Assembly (NCBI RefSeq): GCF_000316665.1
Contig: NC_019678.1
Location: 1,302,001 to 1,366,000, forward strand
DNA length: 64,000 bases
From: Rivularia sp. PCC 7116
GTDB taxonomy: Bacteria; Cyanobacteriota; Cyanobacteriia; Cyanobacteriales; Nostocaceae
Direction: 5' to 3'
How positions within the stretch are numbered: the first letter of the stretch is position 1; the number at the start of each line of letters is the position of its first letter. Made by a program: the position numbers and the translations under genes. This document shows positions 30,771-62,867 of this stretch, in pieces. The notes under the pieces were generated by a model. It saw nothing but the letters and a program-made list of their open reading frames with translations. It was not told the DNA's origin and made no database searches.

Positions 30771-32279
30771 ATGACAGCAGGGGACTCGAATTTTTCCGAT
30801 ATTCCAGCAGAAGAAGAAACAGTAATCGAAGAAACTACGTTCAAAGATTATCCCAAAACCAGCAAGCAGCGTCCTTGGTGGACAATAATGCTTATGGGTA
30901 TGGCTCTAGGTATTGGAATAGCTATGGGAGGAATGCGTCTGCTAGGCAATCGTCCCAAAAGCGAACCAAAGGTAGCAAATCCATCTACTCAAGCGCTTGC
31001 TCCAGCAATGACTGTTAATCTTGCTTTAGTCGAATTTACTAAAGTTGCTCGTAATCTTAATGTTACTGGTACTGTTGCAGCTAGTGAATTGACTCCGGTA
31101 TTACCTCAATCTAATGGTTTGCAAGTCAAGCAAATTCTGGTTAAACAGGGAGATTCCGTTAAAGAAAATCAAGTAATGGCAGTTTTAGACGATTCGCTTC
31201 TACAAGACCAAATCCGTCAAGCAAAAGCAGAAGTCGAATCTCAACAAGCCGAAGTCGCTTCTAGAGAAGCAGATTTGTCTTCCAGACAGGCAGCTTTAGA
31301 ATCAAGTAGAGCAAATGTAATATCAAATCAAGCAACAGTCGAGCAGAGACAAGCCGATTTAGCACAAGCCAAAGCAAAACTTAGAGAAGCTCAAAGAAAT
31401 TACCAGCGCAATTTAAAGCTTTCCAATCAAGGTGCTATCAGTAAGCAATTATTTGAAACTGCTGAAACTAATTTTGAAACTGCAAAAGAAGCAGTACGCA
31501 TTGCACAAGCAAATATTCGTAGCGCTCAAGCTAATGTAAATAGCGCTCAAGCTAATGTAAATAGCGCTCAAGCAAGCATCAGCAGCGCTAAAGCGAAGGT
31601 TAACAGCGCTCAAGCAGGTGTTCGTAGCGCTACAGCTAGAGTGCAACAGTTAAAAACTCAATTGGGACAAACTGTAGTCCGCGCTCCCGTTTCCGGAATA
31701 GTTGCCGAAAAATTAGCCAGAGTCGGAGATATTACTGGTGTACCACCGCAAACCCAAGTAGGAACAGTAGTTGGTGGAACCCAAAAGTTATTTTCAATAA
31801 TTCGTCAAGGAAATTTAGAATTACAAGCCAAAGTCCCCACAGTTCAATTATCTCAGATAGAAATTGGCGCACCAGCCCAAATTACAACTGATGCAAACAA
31901 TCGGGTTAAATTGCGAGGAAAAGTTACAGAAATAGAGCCAGTAGTCAATCAACAACGACGCGAAGCCACAGTAAAAATTGACTTACCGCCTACAGAATTA
32001 CTCAAACCGGGAATGTTTGCTCGCGCTGCAATTGTGACTGACACAAATATGGCTCTAGCAATACCCCAAAAAGCAGTACTCCCTCAACCCGACGGAAGCG
32101 CAATAGTATTCACAATCAATGAAGACAAAATCGCCAGCAGTAGAAAAGTAGAAACCGGAGAAATCCTCAAAGACGGAAAAATAGAAATTAAAAGTGGCTT
32201 ACAAACCGGAAAAAGCGTTGTCGTGAACGGTGCTGGGTATTTAAAAGATGGCGACAAAGTACGGGTGGCGAAACAATAA
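30771..32279 (+). CDS. RND efflux periplasmic adaptor (HlyD/AcrA type)
   Basis: This is the membrane fusion protein of a tripartite efflux system, paired with the pump downstream. The start is ATG 30771 because a perfect AGGAGGT (30758-30764) sits six bases upstream; the open frame from 30735 would put that signal inside the gene. After a cytoplasmic N-terminus a membrane helix lies at about residues 38-58, then lipoyl halves (VKQILVKQGDSVKENQ and VVRAPVSGIVAEKLARVGD), a long coiled coil, and a beta-barrel. The coiled coil contains tandem 7-residue units (SAQANVN) encoded by near-identical 21-bp DNA repeats at about 31517-31630. Length is 502 aa. No TolC-like gene is in the window. Confidence 0.9.
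   Translation: MTAGDSNFSDIPAEEETVIEETTFKDYPKTSKQRPWWTIMLMGMALGIGIAMGGMRLLGNRPKSEPKVANPSTQALAPAMTVNLALVEFTKVARNLNVTGTVAASELTPVLPQSNGLQVKQILVKQGDSVKENQVMAVLDDSLLQDQIRQAKAEVESQQAEVASREADLSSRQAALESSRANVISNQATVEQRQADLAQAKAKLREAQRNYQRNLKLSNQGAISKQLFETAETNFETAKEAVRIAQANIRSAQANVNSAQANVNSAQASISSAKAKVNSAQAGVRSATARVQQLKTQLGQTVVRAPVSGIVAEKLARVGDITGVPPQTQVGTVVGGTQKLFSIIRQGNLELQAKVPTVQLSQIEIGAPAQITTDANNRVKLRGKVTEIEPVVNQQRREATVKIDLPPTELLKPGMFARAAIVTDTNMALAIPQKAVLPQPDGSAIVFTINEDKIASSRKVETGEILKDGKIEIKSGLQTGKSVVVNGAGYLKDGDKVRVAKQ
31517..31630 (+). repeat. 21-bp tandem repeats inside the adaptor coiled coil
   Basis: Units of AGCGCTCAAGCTAATGTAAA-type 21 bp encode successive seven-residue steps (SAQANVN, SAQASIS, SAKAKVN, SAQAGVR). 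The first two are nearly identical at DNA level, a sign of recent slippage; changes in copy number would alter hairpin length by whole heptads. Confidence 0.8.
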
Positions 32280-57548: not shown

Positions 57549-57757
57549 GAACCCGTTCGCCGAAGGTGTTCCCGAAAGGTAGGGAGGTTTCCTCCGTTGT
57601 AGTAAGTGAAGCAGCGCAGTCTTGGGGAGCCAGTCCGTTGCGGAGGTTCCCTCCGTTGTAGGAACTGGCGTGGTTTTCCCCATGTGAGCCGGAGGCTTTC
57701 TCGCAGAGTGCGACAGCTGTTAGCGCAGCGTGGGCGAAGCGCATACCCGAAGGGTGG
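57549..57757. repeat. Palindromic repeat block upstream of the Fd-GOGAT gene
   Basis: This G/C-rich block contains TCCCTCCGTTGTAG-type motifs twice. Positions 57612-57714 match positions 59501-59603, inside the Fd-GOGAT gene, at 101 of 103 bases in inverted orientation; weaker similarity continues to 57757 (ATACCCGAAGGGT). It lies 209 bp before the gene start. Confidence 0.92.
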
Positions 57758-57965: not shown

Positions 57966-60900
57966 ATGAATAACAAGCAGATGAATCAAGGTAAAGACAT
58001 AGCATTTTCAGATACTTTTTTAGGGCAGAAGTGGTTAGTTGAAGAGAGAGACGCTTGCGGGGTGGGTTTCATTGCCCATCGCAAACAGCAAGAAAGTCAT
58101 GAAATCATGGCAAAAGGATTGGTTGCGTTAACCTGTTTGGAACACAGGGGTGGTTGTAGCGCAGATAAAGATTCTGGTGATGGTGCGGGAATATTAAGCG
58201 CCATTCCTTGGGAATTGTTGCAGCAAGATTGGAATGAAAGGGGTTTGGAAGCTGCGACGGATAAGAATATTGCTGTAGGGATGCTGTTTTTACCTCGTGA
58301 CGAACAAGCCGCTCATACTGCACGGGGTATTGTGGAACAGATTGCGCTTTCTGAGAATTTGAAGGTGTTGGGATGGCGCGTGGTTCCTGTAGATGAAAGC
58401 GTTTTAGGAGTGCAAGCTAAGGAAAATAAACCGCAAATCGAACAGATTTTTCTCCAGTCAGAAGATTTTAGTGGAGATGAGTTAGAAAGAAAACTTTATA
58501 TTACCCGTCGTCGGATTGTCAAAGCAATTCGTACTCATAATAGTGAGTGGATGGATGAATTTTACGTCTGCTCCCTATCAAGTCGGACAATTGTTTACAA
58601 GGGAATGGTTCGTTCGGCAGTTTTAGGAGATTTTTATCACGATTTAAACAATCCCGCTTATAAGAGCAGTTTTGTTGTTTACCATCGCCGTTTTAGTACC
58701 AATACAATGCCTAAATGGCCTTTAGCTCAACCGATGCGGCTGTTAGGTCACAATGGAGAAATTAACACGCTATTGGGCAATATCAACTGGATGAAAGCCA
58801 GACAAGCGAGTTTGAGTCATCCTGTTTGGAAACAACGTTTGGAAGAATTAAAGCCTTTTGTACGTATAGGAAACAGTGATTCTGCAACCTTAGATAACGT
58901 ATTTGAATTACAGGTGCGTTCGGGACGCAGTCCTTTGGAAGCATTAATGATAATGGTTCCGGAAGCTTATAGGAATCAACCGGCTTTAAGTAATTATCCC
59001 GAAATTGTAGACTTTTATGAATACTACAGCGGATTGCAAGAAGCTTGGGATGGTCCGGCGCTTTTAGTATTTAGCGATGGTAAGACAGTTGGTGCAACTT
59101 TAGACCGTAATGGATTGAGACCAGCCCGTTACTGCATAACATCGGATGACTACATTGTGGTTGCTTCTGAAGCTGGTGTGGTTGATTTCAGTGAAGAAAA
59201 TATCATTGAAAAAGGTCGGCTTGGTCCCGGAGAAATGATTGCCGTGGATTTACAAAACCACGAAATTCTCAAAAATTGGGAAATTAAGCAGCGAGCCGCT
59301 AAAGCCAATCCTTATGGGGAATGGCTACGACAACATCGGAAATCATTGAACAGTGAGCAGTTAACAGAAAATAATGGTAACGGTGCTAACGGTAACGGTG
59401 CTAATGGTAACGGTGCTAATGGTAACGGTGTAAACGGAAATGGACATTCAGCTACTAACAACCCTTCGGGTATCTCCTCCGGAGACGCTGCGCTAACGCA
59501 GTCGCACTCTGCGAGAAAGCCTCCGGCTCACATGGGGGAAACCACGCCAGTTCCTACAACGGAGGGAACCTCCGCAACGGACTGGCTCCCCAAGACCGCG
59601 CTGTCTCACCAACAACTAACAACTAACCCAATAGATAGAAAAGCTTTACTGCGGAATCAAATGGCTTTTGGTTACACCACAGAAGATGTGGAGATGATAA
59701 TTCAACCAATGGCAATTGATGCTAAAGAACCGACTTTTTGTATGGGTGATGATATCCCTCTAGCGGTACTTTCTGGAAAACCACATTTACTGTATGACTA
59801 TTTCAAACAGCGATTTGCCCAAGTAACAAATCCACCAATCGACCCCTTACGAGAAAAATTGGTGATGTCGTTGAAGGTGGAATTAGGTGCAAGAGGTAAT
59901 TTACTCGATCCCAAACCCGAATATGCTCGCCGTTTCAAGTTGGAATCGCCAGTATTAACTGAGGCTCAATTACAAGAGATACAAAAATCGGATTTTGGTA
60001 CGGTTGAATTATCAACAGTATTTCCCATTAGCAGCGGACGGGAAGGTTTAAAAGCTGCTGTGGAGTCTTTGCAAAAGCAAGCCGTGGAAGCAGTGCGTAA
60101 TGGTGCAAAGATTTTGGTATTGAGCGATAAAGTCTCTCAGAATTCCCAAGAGTGGCAAGAGTATGGGGCAATAGATGCAGAGAATACTTACATTCCGCCT
60201 TTATTGGCTGTGGGTGCAGTACATCACCATTTAATCGGTGAAGGATTGCGAATGAATGCTTCTTTGGTGGTTAATACTGCTCAATGTTGGAGCACCCATC
60301 ATTTCGCTTGTTTGATTGGTTTCGGTGCGGCTGCGGTTTGTCCCTATATGGCTTTGGAGACTTTGCGTAGCTGGTGGTCAGATCCCAAAACTCAGCAGTT
60401 TATGCAGCGCGGTAAAATCGCGGCTGTAAGTTTGGAGCAATCCCTAGCTAATTATGCCAAGGCTGTAGAAAATGGTTTGCTGAAAATCCTTTCTAAAATG
60501 GGAATTTCGCTGTTGACTAGTTACCAAGGAGCGCAAATTTTTGAAGCTATTGGTATTGGTAGAGATTTGTTAGATTTAGGATTTTACGGTACGACTTCTC
60601 GGATTGGTGGAATTAGCCTCGTAGAATTAGCCCAAGAAGTTTTATCCATACACTGCAAAGCCTTCCCCGAATTAAACGCCAAAAAGTTAGAAAATTTGGG
60701 TTTTGTTCAGTATCGTCGCGGTGGCGAATACCATATGAACAGCCCAGAAATGGCGAAAGCGCTGCACCAAGCTGTTGATGGTAAAAATTACGACCATTAC
60801 GAAGTTTATCAAAAGCATTTGCAAGGTAGACCAATTACCGCATTACGCGATTTACTTGACTTCCAAAGCGATAGAAAGCCGATTCCCATTCAAGAAGTAG

Positions 60901-62867
60901 AGCCAGTAAGCGAAATCGTCAAGCGCTTCTGTACGGGGGGAATGTCACTAGGAGCATTGTCACGAGAAGCACACGAAACCCTGGCGATTGCCATGAATAG
61001 GCTTGGCGGAAAGTCTAATTCAGGTGAAGGTGGTGAAGACCCCATACGTTTCAAAGCTTTAAATGATGTTAATGAAACGGGTCATTCAGCAACTTTACCT
61101 CATTTAAATGGTTTGCTTAACGGCGATACGGCTTCGAGTGCAATCAAGCAAGTTGCATCGGGACGCTTTGGTGTAACTCCACAGTACCTGATGAGCGCCA
61201 AGCAAATTGAAATTAAGATGGCTCAAGGTGCTAAACCCGGAGAAGGGGGACAGTTACCGGGTAAAAAAGTTAGCGAATATATTGCTAGCTTAAGACGTTC
61301 TAAGCCTGGAGTGACTTTAATTTCTCCACCACCACATCACGATATTTATTCGATTGAAGACTTGGCACAGTTAATTTTTGATTTACATCAAATTAACCCC
61401 AAAGCTCAAGTTTCGGTAAAACTGGTATCAGAAATTGGTATCGGAACTATTGCTGCGGGTGTAGCCAAAGCCAATGCCGATATTATCCAGATTTCCGGTC
61501 ATGATGGTGGTACGGGAGCATCACCTCTGAGTTCTATTAAACACGCCGGTTCTCCTTGGGAACTGGGTTTAAGCGAAGTACACCGAGTTTTGATGGAAAA
61601 TAGCCTGCGCGATCGAGTGATTCTGCGCGTAGATGGCGGTTTGAAGAGCGGCTGGGATGTTTTGATGGGAGCAATGATGGGAGCCGAAGAATTTGGTTTT
61701 GGCTCCATTGCCATGATTGCTGAAGGCTGTATTATGGCGCGGATATGTCATACAAATAACTGTCCCGTAGGTGTAGCTTCCCAGAAGGAAGAATTACGCA
61801 AGCGGTTCCCCGGAACTCCGGAAAAAGTGGTTAATTTCTTCTACTTTATTGCTGAAGAAGTACGCAGTTTGTTAGCAAAGTTTGGTTATCGAAGTCTCTC
61901 GGAAGTAATCGGACGTGCTGACTTAATGAAAATGCGCGAAGATGCACAATTAACCAAAACAAAAGCATTAAATCTTGATTGCTTGTTGAAATTACCCGAT
62001 ACCAGAGAAAATCGTAGCTGGTTGCAGCATGAAGTAGTTCACAGCAACGGTGCGGTTCTCGATGATGATTTATTAGCGGATGCTGAAATTCAAAATGCCA
62101 TTGACAGACATTCCCAAATAAATAAAACAGTAGCTGTGGTTAATACAGATAGAACCATAGGGGCACGCGTTGCTGGAGTTATTGCTTCTAAATATGGGGA
62201 TAACGGTTTCAAAGGACAAATTAACCTTACCTTTACTGGCAGTGTCGGACAAAGTTTTGGTGCTTTCAATCTCCCCCGAATGACTTTGACATTATTGGGA
62301 GAAGCCAACGATTACGTGGGTAAGGGAATGAACGGTGGAGAAATTGTCATTAAACCACCAAGCATTGCAACTTACGATCCATCTCAAAACGTGATAATTG
62401 GCAATACCTGCCTTTACGGTGCAACTGGTGGAATTTTATTTGCTACAGGTAAAGCTGGCGAGCGTTTTGCGGTACGTAACTCTAAAGGTACGGCTGTAAT
62501 TGAAGGAGCCGGGGATCATTGTTGCGAATACATGACTGGTGGTGTAATCGTAGTCTTGGGTGCAGTCGGACGTAACGTTGGTGCTGGAATGACTGGTGGA
62601 TTGGGATATTTTCTAGATGAAGATGGTAACTTCCCCGAACTAGTAAATCCAGAAATTGTAAATATTCAAAGAGTAGTTACAGACGCAGGAGAAAAGCAAC
62701 TCAAAGATTTGATAACCGCTCATTTGGAACGTACCCAATCGGCTAAAGCGAAAATGATTTTGGATAATTGGCAAGAGTTTTTAGCTAAATTCTGGCAGTT
62801 AGTACCTCCTTCTGAAGCTGCTTCTCCCCAAGCCGGTGCTCAACAAAAGCAATTGAGTAAGGTTTAG
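57966..62867 (+). CDS. glsF: Ferredoxin-dependent glutamate synthase (Fd-GOGAT) with repeat-derived linker
   Basis: This enzyme makes two glutamates from glutamine and 2-oxoglutarate with reduced ferredoxin, completing ammonia assimilation with glutamine synthetase. A 30-residue propeptide precedes the catalytic Cys31 (DACGVGF) of the glutaminase domain (about 31-430). Then come the central domain, the FMN-binding synthase domain (about 930-1330) with the 3Fe-4S cysteines in [15 protein letters not shown], and the C-terminal beta-helix. The [14 protein letters not shown] stretch matches the ferredoxin loop of Fd-type enzymes, and no gltD is adjacent. Residues about 462-558 are a linker translated from repeat DNA. 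Length 1633 aa, about 90 above usual. Confidence 0.93.
59349..59437 (+). repeat. In-frame STRR fragment and 15-bp tandem repeat inside Fd-GOGAT
   Basis: AACAGTGAGCAGTTA (about 59349-59363) equals an STRR 15-mer at 3333-3347. Then 15-bp units GGTAACGGTGCTAAY repeat from 59376 (59376-59390, 59391-59405, 59406-59420 and a variant to 59435), encoding GNGAN steps. Confidence 0.9.
59461..59628 (+). repeat. In-frame palindromic repeat and STRR inside Fd-GOGAT
   Basis: 59461-59603 is an inverted copy of the upstream repeat 57612-57757 (101/103 identical over the core). It is read in frame as the stretch from NPSGISS to PKTALS. It is followed directly by CAACAACTAACAACTAAC (59610-59627), an STRR array like that at 2063-2110. 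The conserved enzyme sequence resumes at [19 protein letters not shown]. Confidence 0.92.

Follow-up and report, generated by a model that had tools for sequence, protein, structure and literature searches.

The linker between the glutaminase and central domains of ferredoxin-dependent glutamate synthase (Fd-GOGAT) appears, on comparison of sequences, to be a site at which repeats of several types have again and again come to lie in frame. In the cyanobacterium Rivularia sp. PCC 7116, a dispersed palindromic repeat is present in the linker, its site is empty in relatives, other inserts recur at other points of the same linker across the family, and the reading frame remains open in the linkers recovered. 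The explanation that we favor, and that is probably correct, is that a tolerant linker retains repeats that are translated as part of the enzyme.

The gene (gltS/glsF) lies on the forward strand at positions 57966-62867 of the window, that is, the whole 64-kb stretch of DNA analyzed here, and its assignment as a 1633-residue Fd-GOGAT rests on the open reading frame, the Pfam matches and the best solved structure for this protein, that of Synechocystis (PDB 1llw). In the open reading frame list, the frame is uninterrupted and intact, all four glutamate synthase domains are present in the correct order (GATase_2, residues 31-453; central domain, 564-864; Glu_synthase, 923-1308; GXGXG, 1390-1575), and CGVGF represents the mature N-terminus. 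A first-pass annotation had described a segment without a stop or frameshift, flanked by intact enzyme sequence and inserted between the glutaminase and central domains; the single 1633-residue frame with its four domains bears this out, and the placement agrees with the Pfam boundaries at 453 and 564. A protein search of the same genome with GltS returned one glutamate-synthase match and two repeat fragments, and since there is a single GOGAT match in the genome, the enzyme is presumably functional. Among named sequences, the region downstream is matched best by Rivularia sp. MS3 (100%) and Calothrix parasitica (91%), in keeping with a Rivularia. The draft gltS of one genus-mate, G004 (G004:C146:41133-45832; L037, L047, L063), contains one in-frame TGA and breaks into two near residue 1415-1421, owing either to a frameshift or to an error in the draft.

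When the linker was counted from after PYGEWL to before FGYT and compared with 1llw and with the closest relative, G006, it covered residues 455-567 (59328-59666, forward strand). The comparison with related enzymes and a GltS structure that the first-pass annotation had proposed thus revealed a linker of 113 residues here, against 30 in the Synechocystis alignment and 55 in G006. The Synechocystis protein (1llw, 1ofd) is the same enzyme with the same domain order, and its 30-residue linker is without repeats. An AlphaFold model of GltS residues 1-918, built with 46 aligned sequences, gave a mean pLDDT of 54 and a pTM of 0.48, with values of 23-31 for the linker blocks; these low linker values say little because the model was poor throughout.

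Four elements follow one another on the forward strand within this linker. The first is a degenerate heptamer (STRR-like) remnant at 59349-59367, where the genus-mates G002, G004, G005 and G007 have fuller in-frame arrays; the second is a 15-bp tandem array at 59372-59430, in which Tandem Repeats Finder detected 3.9 copies with 95% matches between units, each unit encoding GNGAN; the third is a palindromic composite; and the fourth, recognized from its sequence, is a second STRR remnant at 59611-59627 with two-plus copies of AACAACT. Both heptamer remnants fall under the Tandem Repeats Finder threshold, and the best period-7 score of the linker, 15 of 21, was reached by 5 of 500 control segments taken from this gene, each of them 150 bp and so shorter than the linker. 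The weak remnants are nevertheless credible because complete heptamer arrays occupy this linker in relatives. The GNGAN-unit motif has no further match in the 64-kb window except one with 2 mismatches, and the units, judged from the sequence, seem to have arisen by local expansion of an Asn/Gly-rich linker core that was already present. The earlier description of a linker assembled from at least three genomic repeats therefore has to be revised to a single dispersed repeat, accompanied by a local tandem array and a pair of degenerate heptamer remnants: the four GNGAN units form a real array, but one that within the window is essentially confined to this place, and both STRR pieces, though strong in the linkers of relatives, are weak in this one. 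Elsewhere in the window, 21-bp tandem arrays, possibly coding, are present at 31225-31631, along with further heptamer arrays.

The palindromic composite occupies 59461-59609 on the forward strand, where blastn delimited 149 bp of palindromic modules that are dispersed in the genome and open in the frame of the gene. An inverted copy with 91% identity was found by blastn upstream of gltS, at 57606-57755 on the reverse strand. The palindromic repeat claimed at first reading is thus real and dispersed, while its length is 149 bp rather than 143 bp. When the best 40 of 237 candidates in the genome were scored, the composite had at least 43 matches, full or partial. Of its six frames, two are open, and its predicted RNA fold has an energy of -59.6 kcal/mol (z -3.5). 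A search of a plasmid collection gave no match. Within the composite, positions 59546-59586 (forward strand) form a 41-nt bulged double-hairpin module, with the outer stem GCCAGT/ACTGGC and the inner stem GGAGG/CCTCC, which folds like elements in TrpD and AlaS. The upstream copy at 57606-57755 may bear on expression. We also thought of a switch by inversion between the two inverted copies and found no evidence for inversion.

Comparison with the genus-mates revealed empty sites. The GltS of G006 is 97% identical to that of the window genome over residues 553-1633, and the palindrome is missing from the linker in G001-G006, that is, in every one of the six genus-mates whose linker is complete. 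The upstream region 57493-57759 matches about 40 bp in G006, where the upstream copy is missing, as it is in G001. Because both the linker copy and the upstream copy are missing in G006, both insertions are probably young, and this comparison suggests that the composite probably entered the linker of the window genome after its split from G006. The linkers of the six genus-mates are variable, in frame and 42-65 residues long, giving a range of 42-113 within the genus. In-frame heptamer arrays, for example TCAGTTA repeats, are present before and after the NG codons in the linkers of G002, G004 and G005. The contig of G007 stops within the linker, which there shows about six heptamers before the NG core.

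The linker was collected from 102 sources (the window genome, 6 genus-mates, 80 named loci and 15 further loci) and parsed in 99 of them, yielding 89 distinct sequences. Extraction required both anchors in one frame, so that a frameshifted linker would land among the three unparsed sources; two of these have open linkers and the third has an open match. The distinct linkers are 28-113 residues long (median 50), with that of the window genome the longest, and none of the 89 contains a stop. An NGNG-type Asn/Gly core is present in 77 of them. A family search found matches in 214 of 217 genomes, stop-free among the matches listed. The inserts differ in kind and in place: the palindrome of the window genome sits after the NG core, a hairpin element precedes the core in L087, L091, L101 and L105 (L106 has the site empty), another hairpin element precedes it in L238 with an empty site in the sister L112, and heptamer arrays span more than half of the linker of L246, as estimated by eye. 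For three types (the window genome, the L105 type and G030/L238), the insert DNA was confirmed as a dispersed repeat in its own whole genome. The L105-type insert had at least 39, 42, 42, 9 and 41 matches in five genomes, with up to 40 of the best candidates scored in each, and the G030/L238 insert had 32 in its own genome. The insert of L088 matches repeats in loci of other genomes, and the short insert of L113 was labelled solely by its likeness to L088. The inserts of L134 and L098 had no match among the repeats in the fetched loci.

A tree of 89 rows was built without the linker; L065-L067 were dropped as genus-mate duplicates and G007 as incomplete. The insert label, carried by 12 rows and set by hand before the heptamer scan, so that many linkers with milder heptamer periodicity were left out of it, required 9 changes on the tree, 6 of them forced by starred branches, compared with an average of 11.4 changes for shuffled labels by a quick method. 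Adding L134 and L098, which were kept out of the main count because their inserts matched no repeat among the fetched loci, gave 11 changes. Parsimony changes do not distinguish gain from loss; that the repeats differ in type and in place speaks for gains. The permissive insertion hot spot proposed at first reading is supported by this survey, in which differing repeat types occupy differing linker positions in relatives and 9 changes fall on the tree. Insertion at differing points also fits tolerance better than it fits a single target site.

The heptamer arrays bear on a second explanation, namely that the linker DNA itself is a favored target for insertion or a template for slippage, which is compatible with tolerance and which we hold to be possible, if tentative. 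At period 7, 19 of the 89 linkers (the linker of the window genome is outside these 19) had a self-similarity of 16 of 21 or higher, whereas none of 890 segments of equal length from the flanking gene reached it; at the same threshold, period 4 was found in 1 linker and periods 5, 8, 10, 11 and 13 in none. This strong periodicity, absent from the flanking gene, favors a bias at the level of DNA, as does the tandem NG array in the linker, and small repeats are reportedly often embedded in heptamer arrays. However, the insertion points vary within the linker, and the empty AlaS and TrpD sites, inspected by eye, are without a heptamer array. A DNA-level bias is therefore likely for heptamer growth and less so for hairpins. 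A heptamer is not a whole number of codons, so that the successive units of a coded array pass through all three frames. Slippage of the heptamers as an on/off switch was considered; a change of one unit would break the frame of what is apparently the only GOGAT.

Related in-frame repeats are not confined to the linker. At about residue 722 of GltS, CCCCCCTT/AAGGGGGG hairpins encode PPTPLEKGG in L127 and L094, with related forms in L113 and L143; in L127 the hairpins at this place, CCCCCCTTGAAAAGGGGGG, which encode PPTPLEKGG, form three repeats with changes. This is a second permissive site in the same protein. In the window genome, the core of the module GGAGGGAACCTCCGCAACG occurs in 29 places with at most 3 mismatches, against 1 for the reversed control, and it is in frame in GltS, a TrpD, NurA and a long open reading frame that has no Pfam match and looks adhesin-like. 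A related module is in frame in AlaS of the same genome (L024/L220, C1:5907779-5910415), which is the single AlaS match there and carries its hairpin insert between YIS and GDG. A 19-residue form of this insert is present in G001, that of the window genome is 9 residues longer, internally, and the site is empty in five genus-mates. To check the hot spot in GltS, the AlaS region was run as a control over the same family, in which 214 of 217 genomes matched, and five suspicious genomes were fetched. In G089 a hairpin occupies the same AlaS site, in G127 a short insert lies three residues further along, and in G091 the next loop holds a hairpin; G154 and G195 (2 of the five) had no insert at the place inspected. 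AlaS is thus a second recurrent target, and its count is a lower bound.

In the TrpD copy L010/L204 of the window genome, a 45-bp hairpin directly follows the CGTGGDG motif. This insert is missing from three orthologues and from the paralogue in the same genome; the G006 orthologue (L207) has a different insert near its C-terminus, and the second TrpD of the window genome and G006 (L212, L213) lacks the insert at the CGTGGDG site. Among 26 genus-mate loci, the module lies in a long open frame at 5, encoding an NRPS, SfsA, an FtsK-like protein, a BshC-like protein and a DUF429 protein. In four further locus sets, repeats were found inside genes in 4 of 30, 8 of 29, 4 of 29 and 2 of 30 cases; these counts cover copies whose frame is open for 60 codons to each side, so that gene-breaking copies look intergenic, and they come from searches seeded by GltS inserts or the module, with GltS itself making up 5 of the 8 cases of the second set. 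Repeat modules were also seen in long open frames in L300, L302, L307, L315, L324, L160, L149 and L167, with Pfam matches to NRPS, FtsK, SfsA, BshC/PIG-L, DUF429, AMP-binding, aminotransferase and UvrB/TRCF-type families. A candidate in TruB (L280) was rejected as probably natural TruB sequence. Related in-frame hairpins in AlaS, TrpD, NurA and an NRPS indicate that the phenomenon is wider than Fd-GOGAT. One and the same module is read in at least 4 frames as different peptides in GltS, TrpD, NurA (RVRRFPPLSE) and an NRPS, and the acceptance of these differing peptides argues against a required sequence.

These data also bear on a third explanation, in which longer or repeat-coded linkers were selected because they alter the coupling between glutaminase and synthase, stability or partner binding. 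The recurrence of inserts on the tree speaks for such selection, as does the NG type itself, found in 77 of 89 linkers, compared with linkers of 28-30 residues without NG in L139, L142, L144 and Synechocystis. Nevertheless, unrelated peptides from different reading frames are tolerated, the length varies from 42 to 113 residues inside one genus, and comparable inserts exist in unrelated proteins, which makes selection for the inserts unlikely. The suggestion at first reading that the enzyme might make use of new linker length gained no support. The conserved NG core could still mark a linker with a job. A bolder reading of that kind, which we consider more doubtful again, is that the NG-rich linker provides a protease-accessible or Asn-Gly-labile hinge for the cutting or removal of Fd-GOGAT in differentiating heterocysts. 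Heterocysts are reported to lack GOGAT, and the reading combines this physiology with the NG-rich linkers of Nostocales (77 of 89); the 51-residue linker without NG in L131 (Chroococcidiopsidaceae, outside Nostocales in the tree) counts against it. If it were true, the repeats would keep renewing a sequence that need only stay long and unfolded.

It is highly improbable that the segment is removed at the RNA or protein level, or that the gene represents two proteins split at the linker: the strong RNA fold of the insert is an indirect point in its favor, whereas the frame is kept and stops occur in 0 of 89 linkers, neither of which RNA removal would require, and Pfam gave the four enzyme domains alone. 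An assembly artefact in the window genome can practically be dismissed, since, although inverted copies 1.7 kb apart could mislead an assembler, the 8.7-Mb genome is in 3 contigs with a completeness of 100, the open reading frame continues across the junctions, and comparable in-frame inserts are found in other species.

The hairpin modules appear to share a fold. Seven elements from GltS, TrpD and AlaS of six genomes, chosen by eye and trimmed by hand, had a mean column identity of 68%, and three of them have a nearly identical inner hairpin; the G030 and L127 elements, which fold otherwise, were left out. In six of the seven, an outer stem with a one-base bulge encloses an inner stem that is closed by a loop of three bases (z -4.0 to -5.3), and the seventh, the second hairpin of L105, fits this common fold poorly (z -1.84). 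In the alignment, 82% of cells pair, compared with 66% in shuffles, and the covariation score was 0.42, a value reached in 0 of 500 shuffles, vs. 0.14, with slid controls at or below 0.19. Because the structure was derived from one member and the set was picked by eye, the common fold is a lead rather than proof.

Several known repeat families resemble these elements. The Rickettsia palindromic elements (RPEs) are the classic in-frame palindromes, of about 150 bp and found in unrelated genes (PMC10969869, PMC3733652), and they are described as encoding a conserved peptide (review PMC10969869). The likeness is that a palindromic repeat is in frame in unrelated genes here (GltS, TrpD, AlaS, NurA, NRPS); the differences are that one module is read in at least 4 frames as differing peptides and that the phylum is another, the two being compared by description. 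GTAG/CGTC REPs are stem-loops of 20-40 bp that occur within ORFs of several species, tRNA synthetases included (PMC3733652, 2013); families are reported in cyanobacteria, and neutral placement in flexible linkers or loops is considered by the authors, in a main text that makes no mention of 'glutamate synthase' (PMC3733652). The 41-nt multi-copy stem-loop module is similar to these, but it has no terminal GTAG: in the hand-trimmed elements, GTAG is internal in two G000 modules and absent from AlaS_G091. STRR repeats are present in rnpB. STRR heptamer arrays have been described between genes in Nostoc (PMC2670836), and repeats in the trnL intron (PMC4476775). The linker arrays resemble these in their seven-base tandem repeats, strong in 19 of 89 linkers and weak in the linker of the window genome (15 of 21), and differ in that they sit in a protein-coding frame, with all three unit frames read. 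The SDR elements are said to be very small mobile repeats of Nostocales, 21-27 nt in length, some with a common secondary structure. Compared by size, the modules here, at 40-43 nt, are larger than that reported range. The SDR work of Elhai (2008) is cited in PMC4390886. Within the titles and abstract openings searched, with most subscription papers and supplements outside this scope, we found no report of repeats in the Fd-GOGAT linker and none of coded STRRs in cyanobacterial enzymes, which does not establish absence from print.

We therefore return to the tolerant linker. Under this explanation, the Fd-GOGAT linker of Nostocales would be long, probably disordered and Asn/Gly-rich, with the reading frame as nearly its sole constraint. 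Repeat-rich genomes would keep generating short hairpin elements and heptamer tandem arrays, and those that land or grow in the linker without a stop or frameshift would be translated as extra linker and survive as nearly neutral additions, while insertions into folded domains would mostly be lost. In the window genome, the palindromic composite would have been added to an NG array and heptamer remnants that were older than itself. The linker may differ from AlaS and the residue-722 loop in degree, not in kind.

If this explanation holds, dispersed hairpins and heptamer arrays, which are usually deemed non-coding, would be a recurring raw material within housekeeping reading frames. One linker sampled repeatedly across the family would then amount to a natural insertion-tolerance experiment, and the series of linkers makes it a testable question whether translated repeats are neutral or useful.
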